The position numbers and the translations under genes were made by a program. Under the pieces are notes generated by a model that saw nothing but the letters and a program-made list of their open reading frames with translations, did no database searches and was not told where the DNA came from. 64,000 nt of DNA, taken from contig NZ_JACZCS010000014.1 in NCBI RefSeq assembly GCF_014904745.1, positions 1-64,000 of the forward strand, in the 5' to 3' direction. The number at the start of each line of letters is the position of its first letter. Position 1 is the stretch's first letter. This document shows, piece by piece, positions 29,518 to 36,451 of this stretch. The DNA is from Oricola nitratireducens (GTDB taxonomy: Bacteria > Pseudomonadota > Alphaproteobacteria > Rhizobiales > Rhizobiaceae).

Positions 29518-30414
29518 TTATCCCTTTGCCGCCGAGGCGTGGGTGTCCACCCCTGCCCCGGCAAGTTCCTGCTGCGACTGGGCAAAACAGTTGTCCGGCA
29601 CCATGTCGCCCGATCGGTCACCGATCCTGTCCCACGCCTCGACGACCTTGTAGGCGGCTCCCTCGCCGCCGCCGATCCAGGCGCCCTTCGTCAATGTGAT
29701 GTTGGCGCGCGCGAAATATCCCGCCCCGGCGCACAGGATCGCCCTTGTCGGCGCCTCGTCGCCGACAAGCGCCAGCAGGCCTTCGCTGACGAAATCGGGC
29801 GAAAGCCGCGTCAGCGCGTTCTCCGAAAGCACACCCTGCGTCATCTGGGTCGCTGCCGTCGGCGCCAGGCAATTTACCCGGATGCCGTATTTCTCGCCTT
29901 CCAGCGCCAGCGTCTGCATCAGGCCGACCAGCGCCATTTTGGCGGCGCCATAGTTCGACTGGCCGAAATTGCCGTAGAGCCCCGACGACGAGGTCGTCAT
30001 GACGATGCGGCCGTGGCGCTGCTCGCGCATGATCTCCCAGACCGCCTTGGTGCAGACGACCGCCCCCATCAGGTGAACATCGACCACCGTGCGGAAATCG
30101 TCGAGATCCATCTTGGCGAAGGACTTGTCGCGAAGGATTCCGGCATTGTTGATCAGGATGTCGATGCGCCCGAAGGCGGCCATCGCATCCGCGACCATAT
30201 CCGCGACCTTGCCTTCGTCGGTCACCGAGCCCGCGAACGCGATCGCCTCGCCGCCCCCGGCCCTGATCTCGTCGGCGACGTTTTCGGCATTCTCGCCGCT
30301 CATGTCGTTGACGACGACCTTGGCCCCGAGCCCGGCCAGCGCAAGCGCATGGCTTCTGCCAAGCCCCCTGCCGGCGCCCGTGACGATCGCAGTTCGATCG
30401 CGCAATTCCATCAT
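29518..30414 (-). CDS. Short-chain dehydrogenase/reductase (3-hydroxyacyl-type)
   Basis: 298 residues. The NAD-binding motif is TGAGRGLGRSHAL and the catalytic Ser and Tyr-x3-Lys are present in TTSSSGLYGNFGQSNYGAAK. It resembles the dehydrogenase domain of peroxisomal multifunctional enzyme type 2, which oxidises 3-hydroxyacyl compounds. It sits between thiolase and livJ. A plausible role is oxidation of a 3-hydroxy intermediate to the 3-keto form used by the BKACE or thiolase steps. Confidence 0.88.
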   Translation of the reverse strand: MMELRDRTAIVTGAGRGLGRSHALALAGLGAKVVVNDMSGENAENVADEIRAGGGEAIAFAGSVTDEGKVADMVADAMAAFGRIDILINNAGILRDKSFAKMDLDDFRTVVDVHLMGAVVCTKAVWEIMREQRHGRIVMTTSSSGLYGNFGQSNYGAAKMALVGLMQTLALEGEKYGIRVNCLAPTAATQMTQGVLSENALTRLSPDFVSEGLLALVGDEAPTRAILCAGAGYFARANITLTKGAWIGGGEGAAYKVVEAWDRIGDRSGDMVPDNCFAQSQQELAGAGVDTHASAAKG

Positions 30415-30462: not shown

Positions 30463-31647
30463 TCAGTGGACTACGAACAAACCCGCCGCGCCCATGCCGC
30501 CGCCCACGCACATGGTGACGACGACGTATTTCGCGCCGCGCCTCCTGCCCTCGATCAGCGCATGGCCGACCAGGCGCGCGCCGGTCATCCCGTAGGGATG
30601 GCCGATGGAGATACCGCCGCCATTGACGTTGTAGATATCCGGGTCGATGCCGAGATGATCGCGGCAATAGAGCGCCTGCACCGCGAAGGCCTCGTTCAGC
30701 TCCCACAATCCGATGTCATCGATTGTCAGGCCGTGCTGTTTCAAAAGCTTCGGCACGGCATGGATCGGCCCGATGCCCATCTCTTCGGGAGGGCAGCCGG
30801 CCACCGTCATGCCGCGATAGGTGCCGAGCGGCTCCAGCCCGCGCTTCTCTGCCATCTTCGCCTCCATCAGGATGCAGGCCGACGCGCCGTCGGAAAGCTG
30901 GCTGGCATTGCCGGCGCTGATGACGCCACCCTCGATGACCGGGTTGAGGCCGGACAGCGATTCCAGCGTCGTCTGCGGCCGGTTGCCCTCGTCGCGGTCG
31001 AGCGTCACCTCTTTCATCGTGACCTCGCCGGTCTGCTTGTCCTTCACGGCCATCGTCGCGGTGATCGGCACGATCTCGTCGTCGAAGGCGCCGTTAGCCT
31101 GCGCCTGCGCGGTGCGCTGCTGCGACTGCAGCGCGTATTCATCCTGCGCCTCGCGGCTGACGCCGTATTTCTTCGCGACGCACTCCGCGGTCTGCAGCAT
31201 CGGCATGTAGGCGTGTTCCTGTTGCGCGATGACGTTCGGATCGGCTTCCTGCTGTACCCAGCCGAAATACTGGTTCTGGACGGCGGAAATGTTCTCCTGT
31301 CCGCCGGCGGCGACCACGTCCATGCCGTCGACCATGACCTGTTTGGCCGCCGTCGCCACAGCCATCAGGCCGGACGCGCATTGCCGGTCCATCGTCTGGC
31401 CGGACACTCTCGATGGCGCGCCTGCCGCGAAAACGGCGTTTCGGGCGAGGTTCATCCCTGCCGTGCCCGCACAAAGCACCGTGCCCAGAACGAAATCCTC
31501 GATTTCGCCTGCCTCGATTCCGGCGCGCTCGGTTGCGTGTCGGAGGACATGGCCGGCCAGGGTTGGCGACTTGATGGCATTCAGGCTGCCGCGAAAAGCC
31601 TTGCCGATGCCGGTGCGCGCCGTGCTGACGATGACTGCTTCTCTCAT
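30463..31647 (-). CDS. Acetyl-CoA acyltransferase (thiolase)
   Basis: 394 residues from the ATG at 31647 ([20 protein letters not shown]). The acylated cysteine lies in [15 protein letters not shown]. The histidines of [11 protein letters not shown] and [16 protein letters not shown] and the C-terminal cysteine of [12 protein letters not shown] are present, so it should be active. It cleaves 3-ketoacyl-CoA with CoA. In this operon it could convert the acetoacetyl-CoA derived from a BKACE reaction to acetyl-CoA. It starts 19 bp after the esterase stop. Confidence 0.92.
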
Positions 31648-31666: not shown

Positions 31667-33259
31667 TCAGTTTGATGCCGCTTTCGGCAATGGCGGCGAC
31701 GCGATACCGACATTCCAGTTCCAGGCGATGTCGCCGGCTTTCCGTCGCCGCCGCGCCACTTCCTCATGCAACGGATATGCGCCCGGGAACGGATTGCCCG
31801 AGGCTTTGGGCCTGTCACCGAAACGCATCCAGAATCCACCCTCCGCATGCCGCCGCCAATCCGCATGGCCGGCCGCGACGGGGAAACCGGTCGCGGCAAA
31901 CGACGACCAGTAGTCCGTCATTGCGCCGGAGAATGCCCGTTCCGCCGCGTTTACCGGCACTTTCGGCCAGCGCGGCGGCGTCCGGTCCAGCGTGCCGAAC
32001 ACGTAGGGTATTTCGCCGGCATGGAAGCCGCGAAGCCCGACTTGCGTCGCCGCCGGCCAGGCATGGTCGAACAGGTAGAGATAGGCGGGCGCGCCTTGCT
32101 TGCCCTGCTCCGTTGCCAGTTTCTCGGCGGTCCAGCCATAGAGCGCGTCCCGCGTCGCGGCGAGAATGCTCTCGCCCATGTCTGCGGACGGGTAGAGTTT
32201 CAGGAAATCGTCGGCGAGTTCGCCGTAGCGGCCGCGGATTTCCGCCTCGTAGCTCGCCGCGCTCCCGGGAGCGTCGGGCGCCAGGAACGGAAGCGAACGG
32301 ATTTCGCCGCTATTGAACCCGGCCAACAGCGGAACTTTCGCCTGTTCGCCACGCTCGAAGGTCTCGACGACCTGCCGGTGCAGGACATGACGATCGACGC
32401 AGCCCGAGGGCTGGAATCCCTTCCTTGCAGCGGCAGCGGCGAGTTCCGTCGCGTCCATCGCCCGTAGCTGCGCGATGTCGCGCGCGCCGAGCGCCGCCAC
32501 CATGCGGTCGCCGATCGATTCCGCCGGTTCCTCGCCAAAGCGGGGCAGTCTCAGATCGGGCATCGAGATAGCGTAGGCGCTCTGCGCGACTGCCTTGGAA
32601 AACAGTCTGCGTGCCCGCGGCGCGCACATCAGATAGAGCACGCTCAGCGCGCCGGCAGATTCGCCCGCGACAGTGACATTTCCCGGATCACCACCAAAGG
32701 ACGCGATATTGTCGCGCACCCATTCCAGAGCCGCGATCTGGTCGAGTAGCCCATAATTGCCCGAGACGCCCTCGCGCGATTCCGCGCTCAACGCCGGATG
32801 CGCGAGATAACCGAAAATGCCGAGCCGGTAGTTGATCGACACGAAGACGATCCCGCGCCTGGCAAATTCGGCACCATCGTGGACCGGCTCGGAACTGCCG
32901 CCCCAGATCAGCGAGCCGCCATGAATCCAGACGAATACCGGCGCACGCCTGGCGTCCTGCGGCGTCCAGACATTAAGGGTCAGGCAGTCCTCGCCCGTTT
33001 CCGCCAGTTCGCCGGCATAGATGCTGCCCGGCCGCCGCGGCGGCTGCGGGCAGGCATGGCCAAACTGGAGCGCGTCGCGCACGCCGTTCCATGGCGGAAC
33101 CGGACGCGGCGGCGTCCAGCGGTGCGCGCCTACTGGCGGCAAGGCATAGGGAATGCCCTTGAAGACGCACAGCCCATCCTCTGTCGTTCCGCGCAACGCG
33201 CCGGACGGGCATTGGACGACGGACCCGAAGGTCCGGGTTTTCACTGCGGCCTCAGCCAT
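31667..33259 (-). CDS. Type B carboxylesterase
   Basis: 530 residues of the carboxylesterase/lipase (COesterase) family. The oxyanion segment HGGSLIWGG, the nucleophile motif [11 protein letters not shown], the acid region [13 protein letters not shown] and the histidine region [13 protein letters not shown] are all present. There is no signal peptide, so it is cytoplasmic. It overlaps the BKACE-family stop by 8 nt, implying tight coupling. It would release an acid and alcohol from an imported ester. Confidence 0.9.
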
Positions 33260-34220
33260 TGAGTCTCGCTTCCCCCGCCACGCGGCCGAGCCGGGCCGGG
33301 CCCTCGACCTGCAGGATCTCGCGTGCCTCTTCAGCGCTCGCGATCTCGAACGACAGGTCTTCGATGATGCGTCGGATTTTCAAAACCTGAGCTGCACAGG
33401 ACGTGGCCAGCAGACCCTTGCCGAGATAGAGGCTATCGGCCAGCCCGACGCGGACATGGCCGCCCATGATGGCGCCGAGCGCGACAAGCGGGATCTGATG
33501 TCGCCCGTGCGCGGCGACCGAGAATTCGTAGCCGTCGCGCCCTAAAAGTCGGTCCGCCGTACCCAGCATCATGTGGACATTGTCGGGGTCACTTCCGAGC
33601 CCGCCGACAAGGCCGAAATGAAACTGAATGAAGAGTGGCCCCTGCACCAACCCCTTTTCCATACAATGGGCCAGGTTGTGGAGATGGCTCGGATCGTGGC
33701 ACTCGAAACCAAAACGTGAGTCGTTTCCGTGGCCGAGCCGGGCGAGAACGGTCTTAATATCGTGCAGCGTGTGGCCGTGCACCAGACTGTCGGAGGCTTC
33801 GACAAACCCCTTTTCCCAATCGTATTTCCAGTCGGAAATTCCCCGCGCGGATTTCCGGTAGGAGCGGCTCGTCGCTCCCATGTCTATCGAAAAGACGTCC
33901 GGTTTCGCGGAGAGCGCGCAGGCGAGACGCTCGTCGAGCGGGACCGGAAGCCCGCCGCCGGTCGGGACCGCGATAATCGCATCGGTCTGCGCCCTGATTT
34001 CCGGGACGAAACTGTCGTATATATCGGCGTCATGCGCCGGGCTTCCGTCGGCGGGATTTCGCGCATCGAGATGGAGAATGGCGGCGCCCGCCCGTGCGGC
34101 GTCGATCGCCTGCCGCGCGATCTGCTCCGGCGTATATGGCAGGAACTCTGACATGGACGGGGTATGCACCGCACCCGTCACGGCGCAGGAGATGACGATC
34201 TTGCGCCTGCCGGTCCTCAC
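33252..34220 (-). CDS. BKACE-family (DUF849) 3-keto acid cleavage protein with altered metal site
   Basis: 322 residues from a GTG at 34220 (VRTGRRKIVISCAVTGAVHT), which has AAAGGG upstream; a TTG at 34238 is the alternative. The TIM-barrel family is clear: AAILHLDARNP, SVAAHGRHQIPLVALGAIMG and VRVGLADSLYLGKG. Characterised members use zinc held by two histidines in an HxH motif and a glutamate in VGLED. Here His50 is kept, but the second His is Asp52 and the Glu is Ala261. Family members combine a beta-keto acid with acetyl-CoA to give acetoacetate and a new acyl-CoA. This one is either metal-altered or has another reaction. It is the first gene of the minus-strand operon. Confidence 0.85.
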   Translation of the reverse strand: MRTGRRKIVISCAVTGAVHTPSMSEFLPYTPEQIARQAIDAARAGAAILHLDARNPADGSPAHDADIYDSFVPEIRAQTDAIIAVPTGGGLPVPLDERLACALSAKPDVFSIDMGATSRSYRKSARGISDWKYDWEKGFVEASDSLVHGHTLHDIKTVLARLGHGNDSRFGFECHDPSHLHNLAHCMEKGLVQGPLFIQFHFGLVGGLGSDPDNVHMMLGTADRLLGRDGYEFSVAAHGRHQIPLVALGAIMGGHVRVGLADSLYLGKGLLATSCAAQVLKIRRIIEDLSFEIASAEEAREILQVEGPARLGRVAGEARLNG

Positions 34221-34498
34221 GCCGCGCCCTTTAGGCAAAGCTGGCGGCCGGCGGCGGGTCGGCCCGGCATGGCCTTGCCCAAACCGTAGTCCTCTACCGT
34301 CCCGGATGCGGGCTTCCCCGCCTCCGGGCTAAGCAGCCCTTCGACGCTCGTCATGAAATCCTCCCCCGGACACAGCCTCTCCGCGTCCGATGAGCGGAGG
34401 TTATCCGGTCGATCAGATCAGATGAATGTTCGAGACATCCATCAAGGACGAAAAATTATGTATGGTATGTACCTAACATCGATAGGGAGGGGCCAGAA

Positions 34499-36451
34499 AT
34501 GGGGAGCGAGCTTTTTGACGTCACGGTCGCGCTGCTGGAAAAGATCGGGCATGACGCCGGCGAGACGGAGATCGAGGCGCTGCTCGCTGAAATCGCAGGG
34601 ATCGCGGAGCGCGAGGGCCGTGCAGACGATGTCGCTCCACTTCAGTCGGCGCTCGCCATGATCCGCCAGTCGCTGCGCGACAGTACGCTTTCGGAAAAAG
34701 GCCTCAGCCTGTTTATCGACACGACGCACGATCTGTCGAAGACGCTCGAATTGCAGAGTCTGTTCAAGACACTCGTCGCGCGCGTGCGCAATCTCGTCGG
34801 CGCCAATATCGCCTGGGTGACGATCCTCGACGACGAGCCCGGAATCTTCCGCACTGTCGCAGCGGAGGGCTATCTTTCGCCGTCGACGACCCGAATGACC
34901 AGTCGCTTCGAATACGGCGCCGTCGGCCTGATCATGGAAACGAAGAGCTTCTTCGACACCCAAGACTACCTGAACGACAACCGCTTTCGCCACCTGCCGG
35001 AACTCGACCGCACCTTCGAGGCCGAGAATATCGTGTCGCTCGCCGGGTTTCCGATCCTCGCCGACAGCGAGGTGCACGGCTTCCTCTTCGTCGCCGACCG
35101 CTACGCCCGCAAGCTGAGTGGACGCGAGATATCGGTACTCGGGTCCTTCGCGCTGCATGCCGGCGTCGCCATGCGCAACGCCAACGCCTTTCGCCTGCTG
35201 GCCGAGGCGCTCGACGAGGCGCAGCGCAACCGCAATGCCCTGATCGAGCATATCCAGCGCGTCGAGGCGTCGGCGGCCGCCCATGACGAGATGACCTCGC
35301 TGTTGGCCTCGGGCGGCGAAATGCAGAAATTCCTGCAGCGCATGGCGAACCAGATCGGCGGCGCCATCTTCCTGTTCGACAGCGAACTGGATGCCGCCGA
35401 CGAATTCGTTTCGGCGGCCTATCGCGGGCGGATCGCGGCCGACCTCAGGGGCGGTACCTTCGAGGTCGCGCCGTTGATACGCGCGATCTCGCAATCGCGC
35501 CATACCGGACGCTCCGAGATCATGGCCAATACGCCCGATGAGCAGTGCCGGGTGATCGCCCTGCATGGCGGCGGCGGACGCGGCGAATGCCTTGTCATCT
35601 GCCATGAGGGAGACCTCGACGCCATCGAGGTCCGCAATCTGGAACGCAGCGCCGTGGCGCTGTCGATTGCGCGGCTGTGGAACGAGAAACGCGAGACCGA
35701 GAAACTGATCGCCTCGTCCACTCTTCTGCGCCATCTGGTCCTCGTCACGCCGCCGGATCCGTCGACGCTGTCCGCGGTGCGCGAACGGCTCGGGCTGCAT
35801 GCGGACGAGTCGGTGTCGCTCGCACTCCTCGTCGTCTCCGGCCTCGACCGCGCCTCCCAGACGACGCTCGTACGCGAGGCCGCGAGACGCAGCAACGTGC
35901 TCGTCGACCTTTTCGACGACGCCTATGTCGGCTTCGGCGCGCGGAGCGCCATTTCGGAATTCCTTCGCCATCTGTCGGCAGGCGGCAAGGAATGGAAGGC
36001 GGGAGGCATCGTCTCCGATCCGTTCCCGGACCTTTCCGAAACGTCGACGGAATACGGCCGGCTGAGCCGCGCCTTGCAGGTGGTACGCAAGATAAGGCCC
36101 CTGAGCCGGTTCATCGCGCGCTCCGATCTCGACTTCATCGCGAAGCTTTTCGAGACCGGAGATGCGGCGCGGCTGTCGCGCTACATGGAGGACGCGCTGA
36201 GGCCGATCGATACCAGGGCTCCCCGGCAGGCCGCCGAACTCAAGAAGACTCTGTTGTGCTACCTCGAAGGCCAGTACAGCATCAGGCGGACGGCGGACGC
36301 CCTCGGAGTTCATATCAACACAGTCCGGCAACGCCTCGATTCAATTAAACAGATTACCGGCGGGTTGGACGATCCGGTCAAGACGCTCGAAATGCATGTT
36401 GCCCTTCGCCTGGAAGCATTGCTGACCGACACCGGACATGTTTCGCGATAG
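34499..36451 (+). CDS. GAF-PucR family transcriptional regulator
   Basis: 650 residues from the ATG at 34499, preceded by AGGGAGGGG. Residues about 85-240 form a GAF sensor domain (LFIDTTHDLSKTLELQSLFK start). The C-terminal PucR-type helix-turn-helix is KKTLLCYLEGQYSIRRTADA followed by LGVHINTVRQRLDSIKQITG. Such regulators are typically activators of catabolic genes. It is divergent from the BKACE-esterase-thiolase-SDR-liv block across 260-280 bp and is the natural candidate for its control. Confidence 0.88.
   Translation: MGSELFDVTVALLEKIGHDAGETEIEALLAEIAGIAEREGRADDVAPLQSALAMIRQSLRDSTLSEKGLSLFIDTTHDLSKTLELQSLFKTLVARVRNLVGANIAWVTILDDEPGIFRTVAAEGYLSPSTTRMTSRFEYGAVGLIMETKSFFDTQDYLNDNRFRHLPELDRTFEAENIVSLAGFPILADSEVHGFLFVADRYARKLSGREISVLGSFALHAGVAMRNANAFRLLAEALDEAQRNRNALIEHIQRVEASAAAHDEMTSLLASGGEMQKFLQRMANQIGGAIFLFDSELDAADEFVSAAYRGRIAADLRGGTFEVAPLIRAISQSRHTGRSEIMANTPDEQCRVIALHGGGGRGECLVICHEGDLDAIEVRNLERSAVALSIARLWNEKRETEKLIASSTLLRHLVLVTPPDPSTLSAVRERLGLHADESVSLALLVVSGLDRASQTTLVREAARRSNVLVDLFDDAYVGFGARSAISEFLRHLSAGGKEWKAGGIVSDPFPDLSETSTEYGRLSRALQVVRKIRPLSRFIARSDLDFIAKLFETGDAARLSRYMEDALRPIDTRAPRQAAELKKTLLCYLEGQYSIRRTADALGVHINTVRQRLDSIKQITGGLDDPVKTLEMHVALRLEALLTDTGHVSR

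Follow-up and report, generated by a model that had tools for sequence, protein, structure and literature searches.

Replacement of zinc-binding and catalytic residues in a small clade of BKACE-family proteins

We describe a gene in a 64,000-nucleotide stretch of Oricola nitratireducens DNA (contig NZ_JACZCS010000014.1, positions 1 to 64,000; the window), which encodes a protein of the beta-keto acid cleavage enzyme family (BKACE, DUF849) whose zinc and catalytic site has been dismantled. Together with five relatives it forms what we call the divergent clade, and in all six members the zinc-ligand glutamate, the BKACE tyrosine and the active-site serine or threonine are gone. At all six loci the gene is divergent from that for a regulator of one common type, and genes for a short-chain dehydrogenase/reductase (SDR) and a thiolase (in one case a fragment) lie nearby. 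The fold of the window protein is predicted to be intact and, judging from its residues, the canonical BKACE reaction has very probably been lost. As zinc and catalytic residues are lost, yet six intact genes stand beside the same regulator, a different job is probable. The explanation we favour, to which we give just short of an even chance, is that a true BKACE gave rise to a small clade in one bacterial family, in which the gene persisted while the canonical reaction was abandoned.

The altered active site

The 322-residue frame opens with GTG; an upstream frame of 45 residues ends in a stop that overlaps this codon, in support of it as the start. The Pfam BKACE profile (PF05853) covers residues 7–304 with 265.7 bits, and by sequence and fold (the profile match and a predicted TIM-barrel) the protein belongs to DUF849/BKACE. 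Against the nearest model, NF053538 of NCBIfam (3,5-dioxohexanoate:acetyl-CoA acetone transferase), it scores 391.8, under the equivalog cut-off of 430. In the translation, residues 50–52 read HLD (Asp52 encoded by GAT), and the VGLAD segment at 258–262 ends in Ala261 (GCC) and Asp262. In the five best PDB sequence alignments (3e02, 3e49, 8rio, 8rip and 3lot), HLD faces HxH and VGLAD faces VGLED; superposition of the predicted model gives 1.3 Å over 303 residues on 3e02 and 1.6 Å over 307 residues on 8rip. In these alignments and overlays no ligand is displaced to another place, which rules out that the two ligands only seem absent through misalignment. Sequencing error is unlikely, because Asp52 and Ala261 recur jointly in L140, from an independent genome (G1131).

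Substitutions were judged against 78 reference sequences, the window's nearest homologues rather than DUF849 as a whole. They are what remained of 128 aligned BKACE rows after reduction to 85 at less than 90% identity and removal of the window protein, L036, L008 and the distant rows L003, L005, L092 and L092b. Kce residues were placed on the window protein through its alignment with 2y7d (offset 6). Tyr145 is numbered as in PMC12871164; for all other Kce numbers, as for the roles of Ser82 (catalytic), Glu14, Arg226 and Asp231, the usual assignments are assumed. By alignment, Kce His46, His48, Ser82, Thr106 and Asn108 correspond to His50, Asp52, Pro86, Ser111 and Asp113 of the window protein, and Kce Glu143, Tyr145, Arg226, Glu230 and Asp231 to Glu173, His175, Arg257, Ala261 and Asp262.

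Of the three Kce zinc ligands only one remains: His52 and Glu261, each invariant in the reference, are replaced by Asp and Ala in the window protein (Table 1). Nine of the 51 reference-invariant columns are altered in the window protein, among them positions 84 and 171 (Asn and Glu in 78/78; Ala84 and Gly171 here), and 29 of the 51, including His50, Arg54, Gly115, Arg257, Gly259 and Asp262, are retained by all six members of the clade. Arg240, like His50, Arg54, Arg257 and Asp262, is invariant across the six, and positions 50, 52 and 175 read H, H/D and H. At position 86 the pairwise alignments of L149 and L150 place a gap, and the multiple alignment a proline. The tyrosine that became His175, presumed to be catalytic, is stated to be present in all BKACE sequences, in the account that gives its Kce number, Tyr145 (PMC12871164). 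In PdKce, Glu171 is the proposed catalytic base and the E171L mutant is inactive (PMC11961710); the corresponding position 173 is Glu in the window, L140 and L008, and Val or Ala in L036, L149 and L150.

An earlier note on this DNA had recorded the retained His50 together with Asp52 and Ala261 and the codon positions of the latter two, all of which the translation and the alignments with PDB sequences bear out, and its proposed search for homologues sharing the two substitutions has yielded L140. Its description of the rest of the barrel as well conserved holds for the scaffold and fails for the catalytic face, given the nine altered columns. As a whole, its interpretation is partly supported; it had not foreseen the change of Tyr to His175, that of Ser/Thr to Pro86, the loss of Asn113, or the clade of six.

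Table 1. Coordinates of the divergent BKACE gene, its altered and retained residues, and neighbouring genes in the window
Feature	Position	Strand	Remarks
DUF849-fold protein, zinc/catalytic site dismantled	33252..34220	(-)	322 aa, GTG start
His50, only Kce-type zinc ligand retained (Kce His46)	34071..34073	(-)	clade 6/6, reference 78/78
Asp52 for second ligand His (Kce His48)	34065..34067	(-)	His in 78/78 reference; Asp only in window and L140
Pro86 for Ser/Thr (Kce Ser82)	33963..33965	(-)	clade Pro 6/6 (multiple alignment); reference Thr 62, Ser 16 of 78
Asp113 for Asn (Kce Asn108)	33882..33884	(-)	Asn in 78/78 reference; clade D,S,D,Q,D,E
His175 for BKACE Tyr (Kce Tyr145, PdKce Tyr173)	33696..33698	(-)	clade His 6/6; reference Tyr 78/78
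His201, new His, strand 6	33618..33620	(-)	in clade: window, L140, L150; reference I 38, V 37, C 3
His238, new His directly after strand 7	33507..33509	(-)	in clade: window, L140; reference A 76/78
Ala261 for zinc ligand Glu (Kce Glu230)	33438..33440	(-)	reference Glu 78/78; clade A,A,G,G,G,G
Leader open reading frame	34217..34354	(-)	45 aa; TGA overlaps GTG of the DUF849 gene; ribosome-binding-site-like GGGGGAGG upstream
GAF/PucR-type regulator, divergent from the DUF849 gene	34499..36451	(+)	PF13556, PF13185
Type-B carboxylesterase	31667..33259	(-)	PF00135, 321 bits; 8-base overlap with the DUF849 gene
Acetyl-CoA C-acyltransferase (thiolase)	30463..31647	(-)	PF00108/PF02803; ATG start, where family match begins
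SDR dehydrogenase	29518..30414	(-)	PF00106

The clade of six and its catalytic face

Besides the window protein, the clade comprises L140 (67% identical to it), which is alike in HLD, VGLAD, His175, His201 and His238, and four members that read HLH with Gly261: L036 of Hoeflea marina (59%), L008 of G244 (62%), L149 of G1155 (61%) and L150 of G1160 (60%). L148 of G1153 matches L036 exactly over 310 residues. In the tree the six form one clade (support 100/99) beside the intact L007 (from G062) and L089.

Searches covered 247, 397 and 394 genomes of the family and order, four small genera and one genome-contig scan. The 247-genome search (E 1e-60) matched 126 genomes, with results taken from the best 30 loci, and the order search (E 1e-95) matched 121 of 397, with no new member among the best 30 loci (29 besides the window). 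At E 1e-122 the family search matched ten of 394 genomes, three of them with clade members (those of the window, G244 and G1131) and seven with intact enzymes. The divergent gene is rare in the genomes sampled: one of six in the window's genus, four of 18 in genus g47 and three of 394 in the family sample. L140 cleared the threshold of that search barely above the intact enzymes, so members with a shortened loop may be missed; the contig scan used short exact peptides, which would overlook most genes like L140. A DNA pattern for RVGL[A/G]D[S/T]L matched four of 385 genomes of the class, including the window's own, and the other three matches are not BKACE (phmmer, E 1e-3).

To follow constraint on the pocket, 48 positions were picked, regardless of conservation, from where each of the eight predicted strands ends on its C-terminal side. 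The divergence of this catalytic face was expressed as a ratio to that of the rest of the protein. Among 2675 pairs of intact enzymes at 57–88% identity, which are not independent of one another, the ratio has a mean of 0.37 and a maximum of 0.84. The mean of the 15 clade pairs is 0.85, and 12 of them (0.84–1.09) lie above every intact pair; the three lower ones are all within subclades (window/L140 0.57, L008/L149 0.48 and L008/L150 0.59). Constraint on the catalytic face is lost between subclades and is regained within them in part at best. The predicted strand ends replaced an earlier, hand-picked set of lumen residues, because that set had been chosen after the window's changes were seen. 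With the earlier set, altered invariant columns were modestly enriched in the window (Fisher p 0.04–0.05) and not significantly so in L036 (p 0.33) or L008 (p 0.14); window/L140 differences fell at 4 of 27 lumen positions vs 91 of 266 elsewhere (p 0.051), and the ratios were 0.92–1.41 in six other clade pairs and 0.00–0.35 in ten intact pairs.

Possible roles of the altered barrel

Because the clusters hold an SDR and a coenzyme A (CoA) thiolase, we infer that the acetyl-CoA-dependent BKACE step became dispensable: C–C cleavage of the beta-keto product could take place at the level of the CoA ester, and the pocket would be free to change. The retooled barrel would bind a metal through His50, the new His175 and residue 52 (Asp in the window type, otherwise His) and work on an intermediate of the pathway. 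Such a three-residue site would have moved from strand 8 to strand 5, and the window protein and L140 would add His201 and His238 to it; the retained Arg54, Arg240, Arg257 and Asp262 could hold a carboxylate. The chances are about even that the protein is still an enzyme, or a ligand-binding barrel, with a putative metal at these three positions. Its most specific form is rather unlikely: the strand-8 Glu dropped and the strand-5 Tyr turned into the ligand His175, giving a three-histidine site (HxH...H) in four members and, in the window type, a 2-His-1-carboxylate site (HxD...H) of the kind seen in non-haem iron enzymes, with His201 and His238 close by. The barrel would then catalyse a new reaction, and its substrate would be a beta-keto or beta-hydroxy acid from the same pathway. 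The earlier note had offered another metal, no metal or another reaction, which is the right set of options.

Several observations weigh against the favoured explanation. The window protein itself retains the proposed base, Glu173. The complete association between loss of Glu261 and gain of His175 (6/6 in the clade, 0/78 in the reference) stems from a single evolutionary event. Pocket residues 84, 113, 171, 173, 236 and 238 vary freely within the clade and the strand-3 loop is partly lost in four of its six members, a pattern more in keeping with lost catalysis than with a fixed new chemistry. L149 and L150, a pair within one subclade and 87% identical, have a ratio of 0.88 (5 of 46 differences on the face), without conservation of the face, and the 0.57 of window/L140, equalled or exceeded in 184 of the 2675 intact pairs, is high for a normal enzyme. 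Codon changes show purifying selection on the gene, with neutrality rejected, but omega (the ratio of nonsynonymous to synonymous change), at ~0.07, is a rough value since synonymous divergence (dS) is saturated.

The competing explanation is a pseudoenzyme without catalysis or metal. The barrel would be retained for a structural role, for oligomerisation or for effector binding, perhaps as partner to an intact BKACE paralogue in the genome, or itself as a ligand sensor linked to the divergent regulator; any such binding partner is putative. The face ratios that exceed all intact pairs, the persistence of a high ratio in L149/L150, the loss of the proposed base in three of six members and the shorter strand-3 loop speak for it, and the same genome has four further BKACE matches, all with HxH and Glu. 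Against it stand the invariant His50, Arg54, Arg240, Arg257 and Asp262, the newly fixed His175, and the fact that three of the four within-subclade pairs have in part regained conservation of the face. We regard a pseudoenzyme as a serious possibility, if a tentative one, and slightly prefer the retooled pocket.

An ordinary BKACE that tolerates its substitutions, with zinc on His50, Asp52 and water, seems improbable. The window protein does keep Glu173, Arg257 (PdKce Arg254) and Asp262, and a DUF849 member can exchange one ligand and stay active, in another reaction (Glu14 of CESH[D]; PMC6429283). However, it lacks the HxH and Glu ligands (HLD, Ala261), the tyrosine (His175) and the Ser/Thr (Pro86), so that two ligands are lost jointly with both other residues; relatives in the same cluster position have lost even Glu173, whose replacement by Leu kills PdKce, and the NF053538 score falls below the cut-off. 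Slow decay of the gene, once the pathway had moved to CoA thiolysis, is equally improbable. It would account for branches longer than those of the intact sisters, for the patchy presence within genera and the internally truncated thiolase of G1131, and for the identities between the window and G1131 (67% for the divergent protein vs 81% for the adjacent regulator, compared with 77% vs 58% in an intact pair). Yet the frames are open in all six members, down to 57% identity, with length changes of whole codons, and the predicted fold of the window protein is intact. Plain decay is also disfavoured by the codon evidence, in which three fits (window–L134 for BKACE, window–L036 and L134–L089 for the PucR regulator) gave a very large or unlimited dS. 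The earlier note had considered decay unlikely, which the codon evidence and retention in relatives support; the esterase overlap that it cited is weak evidence.

Known DUF849 systems differ from the divergent clade in distinct ways. PdKce (BKACE15 of Paracoccus denitrificans; PDB 8RIO, 8RIP and 9HNF) and 3e02/3e49 have HxH, Glu, Tyr173 and a Thr before TGG, where the window protein has HxD, Ala, His and Pro. Relative to Kce of Cloacimonas acidaminovorans (2y7d-g), the equivalents of His48, Ser82, Asn108, Tyr145 and Glu230 all differ. Like the window protein, the cis-epoxysuccinate hydrolase CESH[D] (5ZMU, 5ZMY) is a DUF849-type barrel without the third Kce ligand; it keeps two Kce-type ligands, replaces the third with Glu14 and catalyses another reaction (PMC6429283), whereas the window protein has Asp52, Ala261 and, by Kce numbering, Val18 at the place of Kce Glu14. 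BsfD, an acetyl transferase of flavophos biosynthesis (probably PDB 9zsc and related entries), also lacks the BKACE tyrosine; it has Phe there, keeps the zinc ligands His48, His50 and Glu247 and carries out different chemistry (PMC12871164), unlike the window protein with His175, Asp52 and Ala261. In the oxidative catabolism of deoxyribonate, a protein proposed to act as a BKACE lies beside SDR and lactonase genes and a thiolase is needed from elsewhere in the genome (PMC6365646), a likeness of gene company. The DUF849 groups tested in PMC4922564 include some listed as not BKACE. The available portions of PMC6429283, PMC12871164 and PMC4922564 contain no mention of loss of the second His or of a Tyr-to-His change, and in the open-access library searched no BKACE/DUF849 paper was found that treats both pseudoenzyme and metal ligand.

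Functional diversity hidden within a single enzyme family is well known from BKACE, and the DUF849 members in the cited accounts, as far as the available portions go, lack at most one of the three Kce metal ligands. The related gene clusters described here provide a small natural series that leads from the intact sisters, by way of members that have HxH and lack Glu, to those with HxD. It permits testing how the metal of a metalloenzyme barrel is lost or moved elsewhere, and with what consequences. For members of the clade, a name assigned automatically, such as 3-keto-5-aminohexanoate cleavage protein, may be incorrect.

Gene neighbourhood

The regulators at the other five loci are 66–81% identical to that of the window. 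In the interval between regulator and leader, the divergent promoter region, an AT-rich stretch (~34449-34470) resembles AATACATATAATTTTTGA of L147, of which L135 holds a near copy; it is a possible candidate operator for the PucR-type regulator. Leader open reading frames of 28–42 residues, taken from an ATG behind a GGAGG-like site and with a stop overlapping the start of the divergent gene, are found at the other five loci (L036, L135, L147, L151 and L152), and those of the window and L147 are recognisably similar. Ahead of the intact BKACE genes of L134 and L089 the leader is absent and an SDR gene precedes.

The frames of the divergent protein and the carboxylesterase share eight bases, ATGGCTGA (33252-33259); they merely overlap, and the fusion described in the earlier note is not borne out. 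The same junction leads into a permease at L036, L135 and L151, with one base altered at L152, and L147 has no such 8-base overlap; the pattern looks as if an importer block had been cleanly excised in the window. The other five loci carry a ribose-type ATP-binding cassette (ABC) importer; in the window this block is absent at the divergent gene, which runs directly into the carboxylesterase. A carboxylesterase of the window type is found in the two HLD clusters (71% identical in G1131), and a CoA ligase is present in the four HLH clusters and was not found in the window or in the stretch of G1131 examined.

Upstream of its ATG the thiolase frame of the window stays open. Thiolases at the other five loci are 82–90% identical to it, that of G1131 being only a fragment (L157, 1669-1972) that matches query residues 2–92 and 360–375 and lacks most of the middle, so that the G1131 cluster may be partly degenerating. 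The SDR genes of the other five loci are 73–79% identical to that of the window. Among intact relatives, that of G062 has the importer and no match to thiolase, ligase or esterase (E 1e-3, over 23 kb to the contig end), L089 has a thiolase nearby and L040 a carboxylesterase; the latter two mean that neither company is a strict rule. One protein of the importer at the other five loci, 709 residues long, joins a ribose-type ABC permease to a strictosidine-synthase/SMP-30-like propeller and is perhaps a combined transporter and lactonase. This fusion is seen in L135 (12585-14714) and L134 (12427-14556), with similar genes in L036, L147, L151, L152 and L153.
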